The notes: generated from the letters alone by a model not told the origin. 46,057 nt of DNA from Candidatus Methanomethylophilaceae archaeon (GCA_017935945.1 JAGBGN010000046.1:1-46057), one strand, 5' to 3'. Shown: positions 33,318 through 41,718, counted from the first letter of the stretch. Numbers and translations are program-made.

Positions 33318-34322
33318 TCACATCCTCAAAACTAACTCGTTTGTGAAATCGCGTTCCAGGTCTGCTGGTGATCCGAGCATGTCCTCGGAACGCATGTAGG
33401 CCCTCCACTTGTCCTGACATTGGCAACCAACGTCGAGATCCGAAAGGTCCTGGGTGAAACTGAACTTCTCTATCGCATCCAATGCCTTGCGGTCACAGTC
33501 TCCGCAGTTGTGAACCCCCCTCATCGCCCCACCGCCAGATGGCGAGGACATCAAACGAGAATTAACAGTGCCAGACAGTTGTCTGAACACATCGATGAGG
33601 GACCATATCCAGGGTGATCTGAACTCACCGCGCTTCCAGAGACGCTCCACGTACGTGGCACGCTGAACGTTCAGGGGATTAATCGAGATCTCGTCCGAGA
33701 ACGGGTCGGCAAACCTGGCGGAACTGACGGCATCGGCGATGGCCATGGACTCGGTCATGAACGGTGGCTTCAACAAGAGGTATGTCCTGATCCCCAACCC
33801 ATGGTCCTTGACCAATGTACCTGCACGCTCGATATCCTCGGGGGTGAATCCCTTGTGGACCGAAGTCCTCAATACCTCGGGATTGGAACTCTCCAGTCCA
33901 AGGGCTATGGTTACGTTGGATGGTAACGATGCGACCGCATCTTCTGTGATAAACTCGGGACGACTCTCGAACAGGATGCGCTTACAGTCCTTGAAAGCGT
34001 CGAAATACATGTCCCTGACGGCCGGAGTGACCTCGTTGTCGTCCAGGAAGCTTCCCGAGGTGTATATCTTCACAAAAGGTTCCCCCTTGTAACGAGACAA
34101 TGCCTGTTCCAACTGCTTGGTCAGGTCTTCCTCGGTGACCTTTGCGAGCGAGGCTTCCCTGTAGCCACACATGGTGCAACCTCCACTCTTCACCCAACAG
34201 CATCCGTTGGTGCGCTTGATCACGACCATAGCATCCACGATTTCTCCGGATGCCATGTCCTTCTCCTTCCAGAGTGTTTCCAATTGGGACGGGGACCTTT
34301 TCTCTCTCATTCTGGATACCAT
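33318..34322 (-). CDS. Archaeosine biosynthesis radical SAM protein RaSEA
   Basis: A 334-residue radical SAM enzyme related to Elp3. The FeS motif is spread as in Elp3-like proteins, with Cys41 or Cys42 and Cys49/Cys52 in GCCWVKSGGCTMCGYREA. FVKIYTSGSFLDDNEV and RILFESRPEFIT fit the barrel. Further cysteines (NCGDCD, VGCQCQ) lie near the C-terminus. In archaea RaSEA works with ArcS to turn lysine-adducted preQ0-tRNA into archaeosine at position 15. ArcS is not adjacent here. A TATA-like GGTTAAATC is centred 29 bases before the ATG, suggesting a leaderless start. Confidence 0.85.
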   Translation of the reverse strand: MVSRMREKRSPSQLETLWKEKDMASGEIVDAMVVIKRTNGCCWVKSGGCTMCGYREASLAKVTEEDLTKQLEQALSRYKGEPFVKIYTSGSFLDDNEVTPAVRDMYFDAFKDCKRILFESRPEFITEDAVASLPSNVTIALGLESSNPEVLRTSVHKGFTPEDIERAGTLVKDHGLGIRTYLLLKPPFMTESMAIADAVSSARFADPFSDEISINPLNVQRATYVERLWKRGEFRSPWIWSLIDVFRQLSGTVNSRLMSSPSGGGAMRGVHNCGDCDRKALDAIEKFSFTQDLSDLDVGCQCQDKWRAYMRSEDMLGSPADLERDFTNELVLRM

Positions 34323-34346: not shown

Positions 34347-34355
34347 GATTTAACC
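34347..34355 (-). promoter_or_regulatory. TATA box of the RaSEA gene
   Basis: GGTTAAATC on the minus strand is centred about 29 bases before the ATG at 34322. No SD motif precedes that ATG. Confidence 0.45.
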
Positions 34356-34391: not shown

Positions 34392-34409
34392 CAAATGTGC
34401 CAGACACAC
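34392..34409. repeat. 18-bp repeat, copy 1 (RaSEA / flavoprotein intergenic region)
   Basis: CAAATGTGCCAGACACAC occurs here and, in the same orientation and without mismatch, at 39477-39494. Its core TGTG-CCAGA-CACA is a short dyad. Here it lies between two divergent promoters and is followed by an ACTATACTC that resembles a TATA box. Confidence 0.6.
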
Positions 34410-34456
34410 ACTATACTCCTGGAATGCAGGATAATGTGAAATCCCTGGTCGGCTTA

Positions 34457-34493
34457 ACACGTGCACACGCACGGGCCCATAGATTAATATTGA
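34457..34493 (+). promoter_or_regulatory. Promoter of the CoA-disulfide-reductase-like gene
   Basis: A purine-pyrimidine-alternating box ACACGTGCACACGCACG (34457-34473) is followed by a TATA-like ATTAATATT (34484-34492). This predicts a start near 34514, eight bases before the ATG at 34522. Confidence 0.4.
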
Positions 34494-34521
34494 AAAGCCT
34501 GTTGCACAGGCGGTAAGCTAA

Positions 34522-35874
34522 ATGGCCTTGGATATCGTTGTTATAGGCTCGGGCGCCGCAGGGATGACCGCGGCATCAACTGCTAAGGCAGAATGTCCCG
34601 ATGCGAATGTCATGGTCTTCACAGAAGATGAGGATGTTGCATACTCGCCCTGCGCCATCCCCTGGGGAATCGAGGGTAAGAGCGAATGGGAAGACATAGT
34701 CATGCACACCCCTGAGTTCTACGAAAAGGAACGTGGAATCAAAGTTTACACGAAGACCAGAGTGGATACAGTCGATGATGTCGCCAAGACAGTGACCGCC
34801 AACGGCCAGACCTTCAGCTACGACTCCCTCGTCATCGCCACCGGTGGAAGGGTCTTCGTACCTCCCATCGAGGGTGCCGATCTAAAGAACGTCTTCATAG
34901 TCAGGACCGTCAGAAACGGAAAAGACATCAAACAGGCACTCGAAACCGCAAAGAACGTTGTCATAGGTGGAGCCGGTGTCATCGGTCTCGAACTCGCAGA
35001 GTCCCTCAACAACATGGGGAAGGATGTCACAGTCATCGAGATGATGGACCAGGTGATCCCCCGCATCGCGGACAAGGACATGGCGGATGAGATACAGAGT
35101 CACCTCGAGGAACGCGGAATCAAGTTCGTGATGAAAGCCCCCATACAGTCCGTGAACGGCGATGGATCCGTTAGGAGCGTGACTGCCGCCGGCAACGAGT
35201 ACCCCTGCGACGTTATGATCTTCGCCACAGGCATCCGTGCAAACCTGGACATACCCAAGCAACTCGGTTTCGATGTGGGAATCCTCGGTGCCCTCGTGGT
35301 ATCGCCCACCCTCCAGCCGTATAAACGCGGACGTCTCGTCCAGGACATCTACGTTGCGGGAGACCTGGTTCAGTGCGAATCCGCCATAATGCCCGGAGCT
35401 ACCATGAGCCAACTGGGATCCACGGCCGTCAAACAAGGACGTGTCGCGGGAATGAATGCCGTTTCCGAGAAGAAACTCTTGTTCGGACCCGTCGCCAGCC
35501 CATGGGTCAGTGTCATCGGGGACAAACAAATCTCCGGTACCGGACTCTCACTTGGACTCGCATCCTGGTACGGCATAGATGTTGCCACTGGAAAGGCCAA
35601 AGGCCTCACGCGCGCCAGATACTATCCTGGAGGAAAGGAGCTTACCGTCAAGGTCCTGGCAGACAGGACCACCCACAGAATAATTGGTGCACAGATAATA
35701 GCAGGAGAGGAAGCGACCGGTCGCATCGATTGGCTTACCGCAGCAGCAATCAACGGTATGACTGCAGAGGATTTCCTGTTCCGCTCGGAGAACGCATACT
35801 GCCCTCCGACGTCCATGGTCAAGGACGTGGTCATCTCCGCTGTTGAGGACCTGTGCAAGAACCTCGGCCAGTGA
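34522..35874 (+). CDS. CoA-disulfide reductase / NADH oxidase-like flavoprotein
   Basis: A 450-residue member of the pyridine nucleotide-disulfide oxidoreductase family. FAD binds at VVIGSGAAGMTAA (residues 6-18) and NAD(P)H at NVVIGGAGVIGLELAE (145-160). YVAGDL is the second FAD motif, and a C-terminal dimerisation domain follows. The single active cysteine is Cys44 in AYSPCAIPW, the place of the redox Cys in CoA-disulfide reductases and NADH oxidases. Likely roles are reducing CoA disulfides, polysulfide or O2; sequence alone cannot choose. The next gene starts four bases after the stop. Confidence 0.88.
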   Translation: MALDIVVIGSGAAGMTAASTAKAECPDANVMVFTEDEDVAYSPCAIPWGIEGKSEWEDIVMHTPEFYEKERGIKVYTKTRVDTVDDVAKTVTANGQTFSYDSLVIATGGRVFVPPIEGADLKNVFIVRTVRNGKDIKQALETAKNVVIGGAGVIGLELAESLNNMGKDVTVIEMMDQVIPRIADKDMADEIQSHLEERGIKFVMKAPIQSVNGDGSVRSVTAAGNEYPCDVMIFATGIRANLDIPKQLGFDVGILGALVVSPTLQPYKRGRLVQDIYVAGDLVQCESAIMPGATMSQLGSTAVKQGRVAGMNAVSEKKLLFGPVASPWVSVIGDKQISGTGLSLGLASWYGIDVATGKAKGLTRARYYPGGKELTVKVLADRTTHRIIGAQIIAGEEATGRIDWLTAAAINGMTAEDFLFRSENAYCPPTSMVKDVVISAVEDLCKNLGQ

Positions 35875-35878
35875 TACG

Positions 35879-36652
35879 GTGAAATACGACGAGTACAAGG
35901 AACTTTACAACGCCCTGAAAGGGCCAGAGGATGTCGAGAGGCTCTCCAACACATATGATGATCGCCTCTTGGACACCCTCTTCACACAGAAAACAAGCAG
36001 AGAGGTGAAGAAACGCTTCTACGTGGTGAAGCAGAACTCCGCCCGTATGCTGAAGGAGTGGGCAAGAGGGAAGTCCATCATGGAGCTCTCCCAGAAATAC
36101 AGATTCCCGCCGATCCTCACAGCCATGTTCATCTTCCTGGAAGATGGTGCCAACAAGAAGGAATTCTGGGGATATGTCAACGACCCATCCACATTGAAGA
36201 ACAAGGAAACCGCTGAAGAGCTCCGTGAGGCGATAGAGAAGGACATCGTGTACGCCCCCGATGCAAACATCAGGCAGAGGGAGCGTGGACTCTGGGGAGA
36301 GGATCTCCTCCATCAATGGTTGGATGGTCAGGGTATAACATACCGTACCGAGAACGATCTCCGCGGAACGGAATTCACCAAAACCCCCGATGCGCTCCTC
36401 GACGAGCCTGTTATGTACAAAGGTCACAAGATATACTGGGTCGAGAGCAAAGCATCATTCGGAGACAACACGGAGTTCAGATTCAACTCCCGCAAACAGC
36501 TCGTACCCTACACCAAACTCTTCGGCCCCGGCCTTGTGGTCTACTGGGTCGGATGCCTGGATGACCTGGAGTGTCCAGAGGACGTGTACGTGTCGGACAT
36601 CTCCGTCATGAAGGTCGACTTGGAGAAAATCGATGGCGAAGGGCAGGAATGA
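35879..36652 (+). CDS. TPD-motif nuclease-like protein (CDIN1/C15orf41 relative)
   Basis: A 257-residue protein. The N-terminal helical part (about 1-95) contains helix-turn-helix-like units (WARGKSIMELSQKYRFPPIL). The C-terminal part is a PD-(D/E)xK-type nuclease fold. It includes RGLWGEDLLHQWLDGQGI, then KTPDALLDEP with the TPD motif at 169-171, then YWVESKASFGD with Glu189 and Lys191 as likely catalytic residues. Such proteins occur in archaea and animals (human CDIN1). The substrate is unknown. The GTG at 35879 follows the flavoprotein stop by four bases. A TTG at 35843 would overlap that gene. Confidence 0.8.
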   Translation: MKYDEYKELYNALKGPEDVERLSNTYDDRLLDTLFTQKTSREVKKRFYVVKQNSARMLKEWARGKSIMELSQKYRFPPILTAMFIFLEDGANKKEFWGYVNDPSTLKNKETAEELREAIEKDIVYAPDANIRQRERGLWGEDLLHQWLDGQGITYRTENDLRGTEFTKTPDALLDEPVMYKGHKIYWVESKASFGDNTEFRFNSRKQLVPYTKLFGPGLVVYWVGCLDDLECPEDVYVSDISVMKVDLEKIDGEGQE

Positions 36653-36660
36653 CCTGCCCT
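36640..36660 (+). terminator. Hairpin enclosing the TPD gene stop codon
   Basis: AGGGCAGG (36640-36647) pairs with CCTGCCCT (36653-36660). The loop AATGA contains the stop codon. A/T-rich sequence including GTTTTTATTG follows, inside the end of the convergent mptA gene. Confidence 0.55.
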
Positions 36661-36674
36661 TTCCATCCAATTAA

Positions 36675-37565
36675 TCAGTTTTTATTGTATTCGGAGCGAA
36701 GTTCACCGAGTGTGGACTCCCTCTCCGCGAATGCGTTGTGTTTATGGATGGACTCCTCGGACTCACTGACCACATCCACATACACATCATCGGAAAGATT
36801 CGTGTATTTCTTCACGAAACGATCCAGAACACCCCTGACCACATCCTCGACGAACTTGGTGTTGCGGTGAGCATTGATGACGACCTGACCCTCATCAGGC
36901 CTCTTCAGCAACTCGTAAGTAGGGGATGAGAATGAGTCCTGAACGAGATCGATGAGTTCGTCAGCCTCTATGGACTGGTCCTCGGGGAGAGTGACCATGA
37001 TTGTGCACACATTCCTCTGGTTGTGGGCCATGACGGGCATATCTCCCTCGAACTCGAGCATCTCCGTCACGGTCTGCTGTGCACAGGGGCATGCGGTCAT
37101 CCCTATGACCTGTACTCCAATCTTCTTGGTGAGGGGACCATCCCTCTCGATGTGACCTCCGGAGAGGAGCATGTACATCTCGTACGTATCCTTGCCCAGC
37201 GGGGTCTTGCTGCTGCGGAAATACTCTGCCCTGATGTTGACATCCGCGGTCTGCGCATACTCGTGGTGTACCAGGAGCTTCCTGCACATGTCTGCGGCCA
37301 TATCCTCGATAGCCGTTATGGGCTTGCGGACACTCTCTTCAACGACCTCGTTCAAAACCTCAACATTCCTGGACATGTGGGAACCTTTCTGGCTGGCAGG
37401 AAGGTCGACGAAGATGTCTATAGAACAGTGAAGGGAGTTGTTGAGCGTGCTGCTGATACCCTCCCTCTGGATGATTACAGGCTTGCGTACGCCCCTGACA
37501 CCCACGCGCGTTAGTTTGTAACTGGCCTCGCCCTTGCCATATTGAAGATCGCATTTCAATGTCAT
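36675..37565 (-). CDS. mptA: GTP cyclohydrolase MptA (FolE2/GCYH-IB family)
   Basis: A 296-residue enzyme of the FolE2-type GTP cyclohydrolase family. Archaeal MptA makes a dihydroneopterin cyclic phosphate for methanopterin; relatives feed folate and the preQ0/archaeosine route. LPASQKGSHMSRNVEVLNE, AEYFRSSKTPLGKDTYEMY and VIGMTACPCAQQTVTEMLE are family hallmarks, the last with metal-binding cysteines. A TATA-like GAATTTAAG centred about 29 bases before the ATG suggests a leaderless mRNA. It is divergent from rnhB, with a perfect 24-bp palindrome between them. RaSEA, an archaeosine enzyme, is encoded 2.4 kb away, so a link to archaeosine is possible. Confidence 0.94.
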   Translation of the reverse strand: MTLKCDLQYGKGEASYKLTRVGVRGVRKPVIIQREGISSTLNNSLHCSIDIFVDLPASQKGSHMSRNVEVLNEVVEESVRKPITAIEDMAADMCRKLLVHHEYAQTADVNIRAEYFRSSKTPLGKDTYEMYMLLSGGHIERDGPLTKKIGVQVIGMTACPCAQQTVTEMLEFEGDMPVMAHNQRNVCTIMVTLPEDQSIEADELIDLVQDSFSSPTYELLKRPDEGQVVINAHRNTKFVEDVVRGVLDRFVKKYTNLSDDVYVDVVSESEESIHKHNAFAERESTLGELRSEYNKN

Positions 37566-37587
37566 GATTGCAGGGGTATTGCAAAAG

Positions 37588-37600
37588 TAACTTAAATTCT
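37588..37600. promoter_or_regulatory. Shared TATA region of mptA and rnhB
   Basis: ACTTAAATTCT is centred about 29 bases before the mptA ATG (37565) on one strand. On the other it predicts rnhB transcripts starting near 37620. Confidence 0.45.
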
Positions 37601-37603
37601 ATA

Positions 37604-37627
37604 CACCTACCAATTTTTTGGTAGGTG
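37604..37627. promoter_or_regulatory. Perfect 24-bp palindrome between mptA and rnhB (operator candidate)
   Basis: The arms CACCTACCAA (37604-37613) and TTGGTAGGTG (37618-37627) are exact inverse complements around TTTT. It lies just downstream of the predicted rnhB-side TATA, over the predicted rnhB start site and just upstream of the mptA TATA, so a bound repressor could block both. The right arm also holds AGGTG, the likely rnhB SD motif, ten bases before its ATG. Confidence 0.6.
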
Positions 37628-37637
37628 CATTTCCATC

Positions 37638-38279
37638 ATGTTTTGTGGTGTCGATGAGGCTGGACGCGGCTCTGTTCTAGGGCCACTTGTCGTTGGGACA
37701 GTTTTCACAGACTCGGATGTCGGCCTTTCCGAAATCGGCGTGAAGGACTCGAAAAAACTCACTCCCAAAAAGAGGGAGAAGATCTATGATGAGATCACGT
37801 CCTCATGGACATGGCATGTGGAGATAACAACTGCGGAAGGTGTGGATGAACTGCGTAAGACCATGTCTCTCAATGAGGTCGAATTACGCATGTTCGCCAA
37901 CGCCGTGACATCACACCCTACAGAGTCGGTGTATGCCGATTGCCCGGATGTTAACGAAACATCGTTCACATCCAGACTGCAGAACCTGGTCGGCAACGGT
38001 GTGGAGGTCATAGCAAAACATAAGGCGGATGATACTTACCCCGTCGTGTCTGCCGCATCCATAGTGGCCAAGGTCACCAGAGACAGGATGATAGATGACA
38101 TACGCTCTGAGTTCGATGTGAACATAGGGAGCGGATATCCAAGTGATCACTACACGATGGATTTCATACGCTCATGGATAGAGGAAAACGGCCGTGCACC
38201 CGCTCATGTAAGGTGTTCCTGGGAACCGGTGAGACAGATGCTTTCCAAACGGGCGAACACTAAACTCACGGATTGGTGA
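37638..38279 (+). CDS. rnhB: Ribonuclease HII
   Basis: A 213-residue enzyme that cuts RNA in RNA/DNA hybrids and single ribonucleotides in DNA. The motif GVDEAGRGSVLGPLVVG has Asp6 and Glu7; Asp101 (YADCPD) and Asp131 (HKADDTYPVVSAASIVAKV) complete the metal site. GSGYPSDHYTMDFI is the typical C-terminal segment. AGGTG lies ten bases before the ATG. A small SCP2-like gene follows within about ten bases, so they are co-transcribed. Confidence 0.97.
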   Translation: MFCGVDEAGRGSVLGPLVVGTVFTDSDVGLSEIGVKDSKKLTPKKREKIYDEITSSWTWHVEITTAEGVDELRKTMSLNEVELRMFANAVTSHPTESVYADCPDVNETSFTSRLQNLVGNGVEVIAKHKADDTYPVVSAASIVAKVTRDRMIDDIRSEFDVNIGSGYPSDHYTMDFIRSWIEENGRAPAHVRCSWEPVRQMLSKRANTKLTDW

Positions 38280-38289
38280 TACTTTGACT

Positions 38290-38616
38290 ATGCAGGAAGA
38301 AATACAGGCACTCATCGACAAATTCCACAGGAAGATCGAGGCGGATGAGAATCTCAGGAAAGAGGTTGCTCCCCTCGTCAAGACATTCAACCTCGACCTT
38401 GGAGAGGAGGCATACTCCATCAAACTCAAGGATGCTAGGATCTATGACTTCGAACCCAAGCTCTTGGATGATGCGGACGTCACACTCATAACCTCCCCTG
38501 AGAATCTGAAAGGACTCATCGAAGGTACGCTCAGGCCCATGAAGGCTTATGTTCTCAAGAAAATCCAGATCAAGGGAAAGATTGACGACCTCATGTTCTT
38601 AAAAAAACTGTTCTGA
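38290..38616 (+). CDS. SCP2 sterol-carrier-like small protein
   Basis: A 108-residue protein resembling the SCP2 lipid-carrier fold: an N-terminal helix, a strand-rich middle (YSIKLKDARIYDFEPKLLDD), DVTLITSPENLKGLIEGTLR, and the end KKIQIKGKIDDLMFLKKLF. The G-x-I pattern near the end, with a hydrophobic helix, is characteristic of SCP2. The ligand is unknown in archaea, which lack sterols; an isoprenoid lipid is one guess. The frame can open with a TTG at 38284, which has GGTGA four bases upstream like other coupled genes here. I list the ATG at 38290 but am not sure. Confidence 0.8.
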   Translation: MQEEIQALIDKFHRKIEADENLRKEVAPLVKTFNLDLGEEAYSIKLKDARIYDFEPKLLDDADVTLITSPENLKGLIEGTLRPMKAYVLKKIQIKGKIDDLMFLKKLF

Positions 38617-38617
38617 A

Positions 38618-38638
38618 TAGGGCGGGAACCCCGCCCTA
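38618..38638 (+). terminator. Hairpin terminator after the rnhB unit
   Basis: A perfect 9-bp stem TAGGGCGGG/CCCGCCCTA (38618-38626, 38630-38638) with loop AAC starts one base after the stop codon. Confidence 0.6.
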
Positions 38639-38642
38639 CGAA

Positions 38643-38654
38643 GTTTTATATAAT
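38643..38654 (+). promoter_or_regulatory. TATA box of tRNA-Met
   Basis: GTTTTATATAAT is centred 28 bases before the mature tRNA 5' end at 38677. Confidence 0.55.
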
Positions 38655-38676
38655 AGTCCCTCTTTCCCAGTTTTAT

Positions 38677-38754
38677 AGCGAGGTGGGGTAGCCAGGATAT
38701 CCCGTCGGGCTCATAACCCGGAGACCGGTCGTTCAAATCGACCCCTCGCTACCA
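38677..38754 (+). tRNA. Initiator tRNA-Met (CAT), CCA encoded
   Basis: A full cloverleaf. The acceptor arms AGCGAGG and CCTCGCT pair perfectly with an A1-U72 end pair. The anticodon loop CTCATAA carries CAT, and the stem has three G-C pairs (GGG/CCC) next to the loop. The A1-U72 pair and three G-C pairs are hallmarks of archaeal initiator tRNA. The discriminator base is A at 38751, and CCA is encoded at 38752-38754. Confidence 0.93.
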
Positions 38755-38821
38755 TCTTTATTCTATCTCGATTGGTTCCTTCTTTACATCGACATGAATC
38801 GTCTGCAATGCACACATTCTG

Positions 38822-38850
38822 TAAAAAATAAAAGAAGAGCCCCGAAGGGC
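38822..38850 (-). terminator. Terminator with UUCG tetraloop after the TPR gene
   Basis: On the minus strand GCCC-TTCG-GGGC (38850-38839) forms a stem capped by a UUCG tetraloop. It is followed by TCTTCTTTTATTTTTTAC, a strong T-rich tail, 11 bases past the stop at 38862. Confidence 0.7.
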
Positions 38851-38861
38851 GTTTATGACAA

Positions 38862-39374
38862 TCAAAGGAGGGACTTCGCTTCCTCAACATCCATGTCGAT
38901 GGCTTTGAGGAGATATTCCAGAGCCTTCTTACCGTAAGGGGCACGTGCCTTGGGGTCTTCCATGATCTCCGCATAGGTCGCCATGACGTTGTTGTAGTAC
39001 TCGATGGCAAACTCGGAGTAAAGTGACGCTGTCATGGACTCATCGATCTCTGCTGCCTCGCGATAGGCCTTCTCGGCTTCCTCATACTTGTTGACCGAAA
39101 TGCAGAACAATCCATAGGACTGATAGTAATCGACACGGTCGCCATCGAGCTCGATGGCCTTCTTGTATGCGTCCATGATCTCCTGAACGTCCACCTTGGC
39201 ACCGAACATACCGGAAGCATAGTTACCGCACTCCGCCTTGTAGTACCAGCAATCGGGGTTGTCAGGGAAGTCGACGACGAGCTTCTTTAATGCGGTGTAA
39301 GCTTTCTTGAAATCTCCCTCATCCATCGCCTTCATTGCATTGGCGAGTTTCTTGTCGGGTGTTGCTTCCGCCAT
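38862..39374 (-). CDS. TPR-repeat protein
   Basis: A 170-residue helical protein built of tetratricopeptide-like repeats: AMDEGDFKKAYTALKKLV (about 16-33), a middle repeat around IMDAYKKAIELDGDRVDYY, and NKYEEAEKAYREAAEID. TPRs bind other proteins; the partner is unknown. It is probably cytoplasmic, with no signal or membrane segment. A TATA box CTTTATATTT is centred 26 bases before the ATG, so the mRNA should be leaderless. It stands alone and ends with a strong terminator. Confidence 0.88.
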   Translation of the reverse strand: MAEATPDKKLANAMKAMDEGDFKKAYTALKKLVVDFPDNPDCWYYKAECGNYASGMFGAKVDVQEIMDAYKKAIELDGDRVDYYQSYGLFCISVNKYEEAEKAYREAAEIDESMTASLYSEFAIEYYNNVMATYAEIMEDPKARAPYGKKALEYLLKAIDMDVEEAKSLL

Positions 39375-39393
39375 AAATCGTAGATGAACGGTT

Positions 39394-39404
39394 CAAATAT
39401 AAAG
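39394..39404 (-). promoter_or_regulatory. TATA box of the TPR gene
   Basis: CTTTATATTT on the minus strand is centred 26 bases before the ATG at 39374, a clear leaderless arrangement. Confidence 0.55.
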
Positions 39405-39476
39405 TTTAGCGGAAACGGATGCACAGAGTCGGGCGGTTGGGGCCGGGCGAAACACATAGTCGTGAAGAAGGTTTTC

Positions 39477-39494
39477 CAAATGTGCCAGACACAC
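39477..39494. repeat. 18-bp repeat, copy 2 (upstream of the DUF2284-like gene)
   Basis: Identical to 34392-34409 (CAAATGTGCCAGACACAC). Here it ends four bases before a clear TATA box, the place for a regulator that acts on the BRE/TATA region. Confidence 0.6.
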
Positions 39495-39497
39495 CAC

Positions 39498-39510
39498 GTT
39501 TTATATACTC
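39498..39510 (+). promoter_or_regulatory. TATA box of the DUF2284-like gene
   Basis: GTTTTATATACTC is centred 26 bases before the ATG at 39530. It predicts a leaderless mRNA and decides against the longer frame from 39419. Confidence 0.55.
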
Positions 39511-39529: not shown

Positions 39530-40066
39530 ATGGAGACATGGGAATCCGCATTGTCCTTGAAGCAATTCGAAGACTACTACGTCAAGAAGTGCCCTGTACC
39601 TGTTCACAATCCCGAGGATCAGATTAAATGTCTGAACTATTGCAGGGAGAACGTCTGCGGACAGTATGACACCAATTGGGGATGTCCACCTGGCTTTTCC
39701 GCCCATGTTGAGGAATTCTATTCCGAATGCGATTACGTACTCCTCGTACGTAGGACGTTCTGCTTGGATGTGAAGGACGAGGAGGTCGTGAAGGCAACGA
39801 CCGCTGAGATGCAACGCATCACGAGGATGATGATGTTGGAACTCAGGGACAACGGCATACGTTGCAAGGCATTCGCAGATGGAGGCTGCAGATACTGTGG
39901 AGTGTGCTCCTATCCAGAACCGTGCAAGTTCCCCGAGATGTTCATGCCCTCTGTATCATCCCTGGGATTGAACATCGGCAACTACCTGGAATCATTGGGT
40001 GAGCCGTTCGCATTCTCCGATGACTGCGTTACCCTGTACGGCATGATATTCGTTGCCAAAGAATGA
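39530..40066 (+). CDS. Cys-rich metal-binding protein, DUF2284-like
   Basis: A 178-residue protein with many cysteines: KCPVPVH near 20-26, CLNYCRENVCGQY near 35-47, NWGCPPG, then GIRCKAFADGGCRYCGVCSY and EPCKF. The spacing resembles DUF2284 proteins of anaerobes, thought to bind metal or FeS clusters. The function is not known. The start at 39530 follows from the TATA box 26 bases upstream. An exact copy of the 18-bp box also found at 34392 precedes that TATA, which suggests shared control with the flavoprotein/TPD unit or RaSEA. Confidence 0.8.
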   Translation: METWESALSLKQFEDYYVKKCPVPVHNPEDQIKCLNYCRENVCGQYDTNWGCPPGFSAHVEEFYSECDYVLLVRRTFCLDVKDEEVVKATTAEMQRITRMMMLELRDNGIRCKAFADGGCRYCGVCSYPEPCKFPEMFMPSVSSLGLNIGNYLESLGEPFAFSDDCVTLYGMIFVAKE

Positions 40067-40399: not shown

Positions 40400-41718
40400 T
40401 CGGACTCGACCTTTCCAAATTGAAGTCCGTCAACGACAAATACGGCATGTTCCACGCGATGACCGAGAAGGAATCCGTAGAGGGTTCGTTCCATTTCTCA
40501 GCCAAGGACAACCTCACCAGCAAGGACATGGAGACTTGTTCCGGCTCCAGGATCCTGGAAGGCTACAGACCTGCCTTCGATGCCACAGCTATAGCTAAGA
40601 TGAGAGCGGCCGGCGGAGAGCTTGTCGGTAAGACAAACATGGATGAATTCGGTTTCGGAACGTTCTCAGCCAACTCCGGATTCGAGGTTCCGAGGAACCC
40701 GTTCGACACCGAGAGGGCCTGCGGAGGTTCGTCGGGTGGTTCCGCCTGTGCAGCCGCGGTCTTCGAGGACCATGTATCCCTCGGAGTATCCACAGGAGGT
40801 TCGATCTGCTGTCCCGCATCATTCTGCGGCGTCTACGGTATCGCACCCACCTACGGTCGCGTATCCAGGTACGGCCTCATCGACTACGGCAACTCCCTGG
40901 ACAAGATCGGTATCCTCTCCTCCAAGGCAACAGACCTTAGGAAATACCTCGGCATCATAGCCGGAAAGGATGAGAAGGATCCCACATCCTGTGTACAGCC
41001 CGATTTCAACCCAGGATACAGGAAACTCAGCTCGGTTGCAGTCCCCAAGGAGGGGATGGAGGGCCTTTCCAAGGATGTTGAATCCGCATTCAGGAAATCC
41101 CTTGAGACCTTGGAATCCATGGGAACCGAGATTGAGTTCGTCGAGATGCCTTCACTGAAGTACGCGATGCCCGCGTACTATGTCCTCGCCACCTCCGAGG
41201 CATCCACCAACCTCGCAAGATATGTTGGAATGAGGTACGGACAACAGGAAGGGGATCTCTCGCTGAAGTTCGACGATTACTTCACATCCTTCCGTTCAGA
41301 ATACTTCGGAGACGAAGCCAAGAGGAGGATCCTCCTCGGAACATTCACGAGGATGGTTGGATTCAGGGACAGGTACTACGCCAAAGCACTCCAGGTCAGG
41401 AAGGTCGTCATAGATGACTACAAGAGGATCCTCGCAACCCATGATGCCGTCCTCGCCCCGACCATGCCGTTCACCGCCCCGAGATTCGATGACATCGCCA
41501 ACATGTCCGCGCTCGATGCGTACAAAGCAGATTACCTGACCATTCCCGCGAACATAGCTGGAACGCCCCATATGTCCGTACCCTGCGGATACGGATCGGA
41601 CGGCATGCCGATAGGTATGCAGTTCGTAGCAGATCACTGGGATGAGGAGATACTGCTGTCCGTGGCCGAAGATTGGGAAAAGGTGTTCGAATCCAAGAAA
41701 CCGGAGGTGACAATATGA
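40396..41718 (+). CDS. gatA: Amidotransferase subunit GatA (amidase)
   Basis: A 440-residue amidase that frees ammonia from Gln or Asn for GatB. The Ser-cisSer-Lys triad is visible: Lys37 (FHFSAKDNL), the cis-Ser in CGGSSGGSACA (109-119) and Ser136 in STGGSICCPASF. It is about 40 residues shorter than bacterial GatA at the N-terminus. In archaea GatCAB usually amidates Asp-tRNA-Asn, since Gln-tRNA is made by GatDE. It overlaps gatC and gatB. Confidence 0.95.
   Translation: MIGLDLSKLKSVNDKYGMFHAMTEKESVEGSFHFSAKDNLTSKDMETCSGSRILEGYRPAFDATAIAKMRAAGGELVGKTNMDEFGFGTFSANSGFEVPRNPFDTERACGGSSGGSACAAAVFEDHVSLGVSTGGSICCPASFCGVYGIAPTYGRVSRYGLIDYGNSLDKIGILSSKATDLRKYLGIIAGKDEKDPTSCVQPDFNPGYRKLSSVAVPKEGMEGLSKDVESAFRKSLETLESMGTEIEFVEMPSLKYAMPAYYVLATSEASTNLARYVGMRYGQQEGDLSLKFDDYFTSFRSEYFGDEAKRRILLGTFTRMVGFRDRYYAKALQVRKVVIDDYKRILATHDAVLAPTMPFTAPRFDDIANMSALDAYKADYLTIPANIAGTPHMSVPCGYGSDGMPIGMQFVADHWDEEILLSVAEDWEKVFESKKPEVTI

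Follow-up and report, generated by a model that had tools for sequence, protein, structure and literature searches.

The 46,057 nt archaeal sequence analysed here (the window) contains two copies of CAAATGTGCCAGACACAC, identical and on the same strand, in promoter regions about 5 kb apart, and the question that this locus raises is whether they mark a regulatory site and, if so, of which genes. The original prediction described an exact 18 bp repeat built around a dyad, TGTG-CCAGA-CACA, and read it as the sign of a redox or metal regulon. The repeat itself and its surroundings were confirmed as described (Table 1): both copies are intergenic, the first lying between divergent genes for the archaeosine biosynthesis protein RaSEA and a CoA-disulfide-reductase-like flavoprotein (293 bits on TIGR03385, under that model's cutoff), and the second stopping four bases before the TATA box TTTTATATA of a gene for a Cys-rich DUF2284 protein, whose TATA-to-ATG distance is compatible with a leaderless transcript.

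Table 1. Features discussed in the text; positions are those of the window except where a locus is named
Feature	Position	Strand	Remarks
Repeat copy 1 of CAAATGTGCCAGACACAC	34392-34409	+	conserved core ATGTGCCAGAC at 34395-34405
Repeat copy 2 of CAAATGTGCCAGACACAC	39477-39494	+	core at 39480-39490
19 bp motif site upstream of flavoprotein gene	34395-34413	+	PWM score 20.8
19 bp motif site abutting DUF2284 TATA box	39480-39498	+	PWM score 18.4
TATA-like box ATTAATAT, flavoprotein promoter	34483-34490	+	motif core centre 83 bp upstream
TATA-like box (TTTAAC on +), divergent RaSEA promoter	34349-34354	-	
TATA box TTTTATATA, DUF2284 promoter	39499-39507	+	
RaSEA, archaeosine biosynthesis radical SAM protein	33318-34322	-	TIGR01210, 332.5 bits vs cutoff 212
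CoA-disulfide-reductase-like flavoprotein	34522-35874	+	Pyr_redox_2, E 1.5e-55
DUF2284 predicted metal-binding Cys-rich protein	39530-40066	+	PF10050, E 1.7e-24; ATG at 39530
Beta-CASP RNase leader	L438 (own genome, G000:C59, upstream of gene 37588-38820); also L430-L455		
Membrane protein beside beta-CASP RNase gene	L363:1592-3001 and L368:1612-3000		no Pfam or NCBIfam match
Motif site sequence, suggested probe for putative binding protein			ATGTGCCAGACATCCGAAT

Taken on its own the 18-mer repeat is weak evidence, being only mildly unusual, and the chance estimate originally attached to it was too confident. In 60 simulations with Markov models of orders 1-5, direct 18-mer repeats occurred in none of the windows at order 1 or 3 and in 10% of those at order 5, and the window also holds other repeats of 17, 16, 16 and 15 bp. 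The proposed search of the organism's own genome added no further copies: at up to three mismatches there is no third match to CAAATGTGCCAGACACAC in the window or the 1.57 Mb genome, compared with three genomic matches for a reversed control pattern, and with only these two copies the full 18-mer is rejected as the mark of a large regulon. Perfect palindromes are also present in the window, one of 18 bp (GCCATCGAGCTCGATGGC, 39141-39158) and one of 16 bp (GAGGAGGATCCTCCTC, 41322-41337), both within coding sequence. As the repeat by itself is only mildly unusual, conservation had to decide the matter.

Comparison with relatives separates what is conserved in the repeat from what is not. Expectation-maximisation on intergenic sites yielded a 19 bp asymmetric motif, ATG(T/A)GCCAGAY-RTCYGAAt, in which GCCAGA is almost invariant and of which the window copies carry the 11 bp core. 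After this core both copies read ACACAC, where relatives have ACATCCGA or RTCYGAA; thus the TGTG..CACA dyad, although present in the letters, is not a conserved feature in its right half, and some of the 18 bp identity between the copies is probably coincidence. TGTG-N5-CACA is accordingly rejected as the recognised element.

Counts of the core TGTGCCAGAC against its reversed control were 25 versus 5 in genome G006, 28 versus 1 in G007, 34 versus 1 in G014 and 28 versus 0 in G020; several members of the window's genus are well above the control, and most other genera match it. The decamer TGTGCCAGAY gave 47 versus 5 in G014, 45 versus 3 in G020 and 38 versus 11 in G023, with weak enrichment (14 versus 7) in the window's own genome, and an extended 18-mer, ATGTGCCAGACATCCGAA, allowing up to three mismatches, gave 16 versus 1 (G006), 12 versus 0 (G023), 11 versus 0 (G014) and 10 versus 0 (G011). 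An exact consensus scan of GTDB genomes returned three Methanomethylophilaceae/Methanomassiliicoccaceae records and scattered bacteria that resemble chance. The motif occurs in either orientation, and in G006 its sites are scattered round the chromosome on both strands. Training of the position weight matrix (PWM) used intergenic sites, which makes the matrix's own preference for intergenic DNA circular, and we do not count it as evidence; the decamer test alone is free of this circularity. In that test, which used stretches around the sites with genes called by a simple codon model, 60 of 157 unique sites from six genomes (38%) are intergenic and 97 fall in coding DNA. The intergenic share is 14.5% for bases in general and 11% for the sites of 150 permuted decamers.

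Conservation in place was then assessed gene by gene. A site upstream of the flavoprotein gene, on the same strand and at about -89 to -127, is present in 14 of 23 orthologues within the genus and absent in the other nine, and was found in none of six orthologues checked outside the genus. Upstream of the L18Ae gene a site is found in 22 of 30 genus genomes, two of these scoring just under 10; a subclade of seven species has the RadA site at a constant -98 to -101; and eight species have a site before a beta-CASP RNase gene, where up to three sites keep a constant 22 and 42 bp spacing within diverged surrounding DNA. In promoter alignments of RadA, L18Ae and AKR/FolD the motif stands out, as do the TATA region and the leader. 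The DUF2284 upstream site, by contrast, occurs in the window species and was not seen before any of the other 20 genus orthologues examined, and in the orthologues of G020 and G007 a motif match lies inside the coding part. Conservation before the same genes in relatives therefore holds for one of the two window promoters and fails for the other, while the reading of the repeat as a regulator site gains support from the first copy, kept in position and orientation, and from the related sites before many genes. It is very probable that the first copy functions at the flavoprotein gene, and the second is plausibly a species-specific site. That the two copies are a chance repeat unrelated to any site would fit the order-5 simulations and the lack of a conserved counterpart for the second copy; it is contradicted for the first copy by conservation in place, orientation and phase, and is the least probable of the explanations considered here.

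The phase in question is that between the motif and the TATA box. Among promoters with a clear TATA box the distance to it varies, with a concentration near 35-47 bp upstream, and at RadA it is 38-39 bp. The gaps at the L18Ae promoter are 55 bp (one species), 63-64 (11), 74-75 (six), 86-87 (two) and 98 (the window species), the site in G010 having the opposite orientation; at the flavoprotein promoter, where several TATA boxes were chosen by eye, the distances from the core are 44, 48-50 (five species), 59-62 (five), 70 and, in the window species, 83 bp. Both series advance in steps of 11-11.5 bp, somewhat longer than the 10.5 bp per turn of relaxed DNA, and are consistent with spacing by whole helical turns. 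Class-level Rayleigh p values are 0.03 for L18Ae and 0.02 for the flavoprotein gene, the lower species-level values overstating the significance since the species of a genus are related and not independent. The 55 bp class of L18Ae is off phase, and the sites of RadA and the beta-CASP neighbour deviate from the common phase by no more than about 2.5 bp. On the RaSEA side, used as a control, the spacing is spread much more widely (26-114 bp) and has no periodicity (P=0.34), so that RaSEA is not supported as the phased target, though it may be co-regulated; the phased spacing makes the flavoprotein gene the likelier target of the first window site.

We consider it likely that both window copies hold the core of a cis-regulatory element found across the genus, bound by a putative sequence-specific protein that activates housekeeping promoters or sets their basal level. 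Such a protein would dock on ATG(T/A)GCCAGAY-RTCYGAAt, usually tens of base pairs (often about 40) upstream of the TATA box, and from one face of the DNA could contact the complex of TBP, TFB and RNA polymerase, a contact that would activate many housekeeping promoters or set their basal level. The analysis establishes the element itself, its preference for intergenic DNA, its conservation in place and, at two promoters, its stepwise distance to TATA; that a protein binds it, activates rather than represses and contacts the basal machinery is inference. Activation is favoured because most sites lie too far upstream to block TBP/TFB. If the protein were a repressor or dual regulator, with the site marking promoters that are shut down, the places where a site abuts the TATA box, namely the second window site and the third site in the beta-CASP region, would be readily explained by a bound protein blocking TBP/TFB; steric blocking is, however, improbable at most of the conserved sites (38-39 bp from TATA at RadA, 63-98 bp at L18Ae), the target genes are expected to be always on, and repression appears unlikely. 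Less likely again is an architectural, insulator-like or chromosome-organising element that keeps promoters open without contacting the basal machinery. Freedom of orientation, a diverse set of housekeeping targets without a common pathway, and the position of 12 of 84 intergenic sites between convergent genes would all suit such an element, but spacing to TATA by helical turns speaks in favour of contact with the promoter complex.

The identity of the targets bears directly on the redox or metal regulon that was first proposed. Sites cluster across several species at the flavoprotein/RaSEA pair (13 species with the cut-off applied), at L18Ae beside primase (eight in the first set), at RadA beside an aminotransferase, at the beta-CASP RNase gene beside a membrane protein gene, and at AKR/FolD, with RadA, the beta-CASP RNase and FolD marked in subclades. 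In one or two species only, sites precede genes for ferredoxin, L18e, TBP, an RPA-like OB-fold protein, S3Ae, PcrB, UbiA, a GGPP synthase-like protein, a GHMP kinase and MtmB/PylS-like proteins, among others; lipid-synthesis genes are represented among the single-species cases, and some single-species sites will be chance occurrences. Further site-bearing genes are presumably those for aIF1A, LSm and S15, recognised by eye from the sequence. The genes downstream of the motif are thus functionally diverse housekeeping genes, conserved as targets in the case of L18Ae, RadA and the beta-CASP RNase and otherwise marked in one species or a few. A redox- or metal-sensing regulon could point to both window neighbours and to the sites at an aldo-keto/Fe-S protein, ferredoxin and an FMN reductase; set against this, the targets conserved most widely, apart from the flavoprotein, are L18Ae, RadA and the beta-CASP RNase, and the site is not shared by the two candidate redox genes beyond the window species, as that of DUF2284 is without conservation. 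Judged by these annotations the conserved targets, FolD included, are mostly housekeeping rather than redox genes, and we regard a redox or metal regulon as very improbable. The 11-letter element kept before basic cell genes across this genus of gut methanogens is probably where a gene-switching protein docks, rather than a redox switch. In G015 and G027 a site separates mtmB from a short class II synthetase-like gene of 273 aa, which is probably PylS (L389:773-2585; L347).

A search for the protein among its own possible targets found no conserved autoregulated transcription factor in the 40 target proteins scanned or the small ones read by eye. Isolated HTH proteins encoded near sites are an IS630-like HTH protein (G020), a PF09824 ArsR protein (G017) and a wHTH-like protein (G014).

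Several characterized systems offer points of comparison. Archaeal Lrp-type activators such as Ptr2 of Methanocaldococcus jannaschii, LysM and Ss-LrpB bind upstream of BRE/TATA at a highly constrained position, adjacent sites being separated by two or three turns and lying on one face of the DNA (PMC2995911). The motif is likewise upstream of TATA at a constrained position, fixed at RadA and in steps of about 11 bp at L18Ae and the flavoprotein gene, and at one promoter only, that of the beta-CASP RNase, adjacent sites are 22 and 42 bp apart. Whereas the Lrp-type recognition sequence is dyad-symmetric, the motif is asymmetric over its 19 bp, with GCCAGA invariant at its centre and no dyad, its symmetry being limited to 4 bp ATGT..ACAT arms of which the right is weakly conserved, and many of its sites are 40-100 bp from TATA. 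Since the expected dyad is missing we have not classed it as an Lrp site; nor was an Lrp-family gene found among the site-bearing genes scanned. Sites of the TK0271-type activator of Thermococcus also lie upstream of BRE/TATA (PMC6737238), as the motif does in relation to TATA, but the TK0271 regulon is small and specific to a pathway (aromatic amino acids), in contrast to the broad housekeeping set here. A UV-responsive hexanucleotide promoter motif of Sulfolobus (PMC5817253) is similar in being a short promoter element common to several genes, some of them for DNA repair, in one archaeal lineage, and it differs in its length of six bp, in being damage-inducible and in belonging to a distant lineage. 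The open-licence full texts that were searched contained no described binding motif for this order, which is no proof of absence.

In yeast, general regulatory factors (Reb1, Abf1, Rap1) occupy a long specific site before many housekeeping and ribosomal genes, and the motif resembles these sites in its length, specificity and diversity of housekeeping targets, as a functional analogy only. It is tempting, if rather speculative, to suppose that a global activator specific to this lineage operates in a gut genus of the Methanomassiliicoccales type, its long asymmetric site being gained and lost before housekeeping promoters while selection holds it to one helix face relative to TATA; such an activator would be an archaeal analogue of the eukaryotic factors. 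Little is known of transcription control in host-associated methanogens, and the proposed scheme, if correct, would provide a concrete regulon and a site sequence with which to fish out the protein, and the natural spacing variants would inform the question whether an archaeal activator must keep a fixed rotational position with respect to TATA.

The beta-CASP RNase locus has two further features. Its leader, of about 110-130 nt, shows conservation within the genus and partly beyond it, in other genera of the family, and comprises two hairpins of changing sequence together with the fixed motifs UAUCAUCAUCACAGUCAAGG, CUUUCACAAAGUCCU and AUACGAAAAGGAG; it has no Rfam match at E 0.5 and may represent a leader of a structured or autoregulatory kind not yet described. 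Divergent from the gene lies one for a membrane protein that carries long repeats, either acidic or Lys/Glu/Pro-rich.
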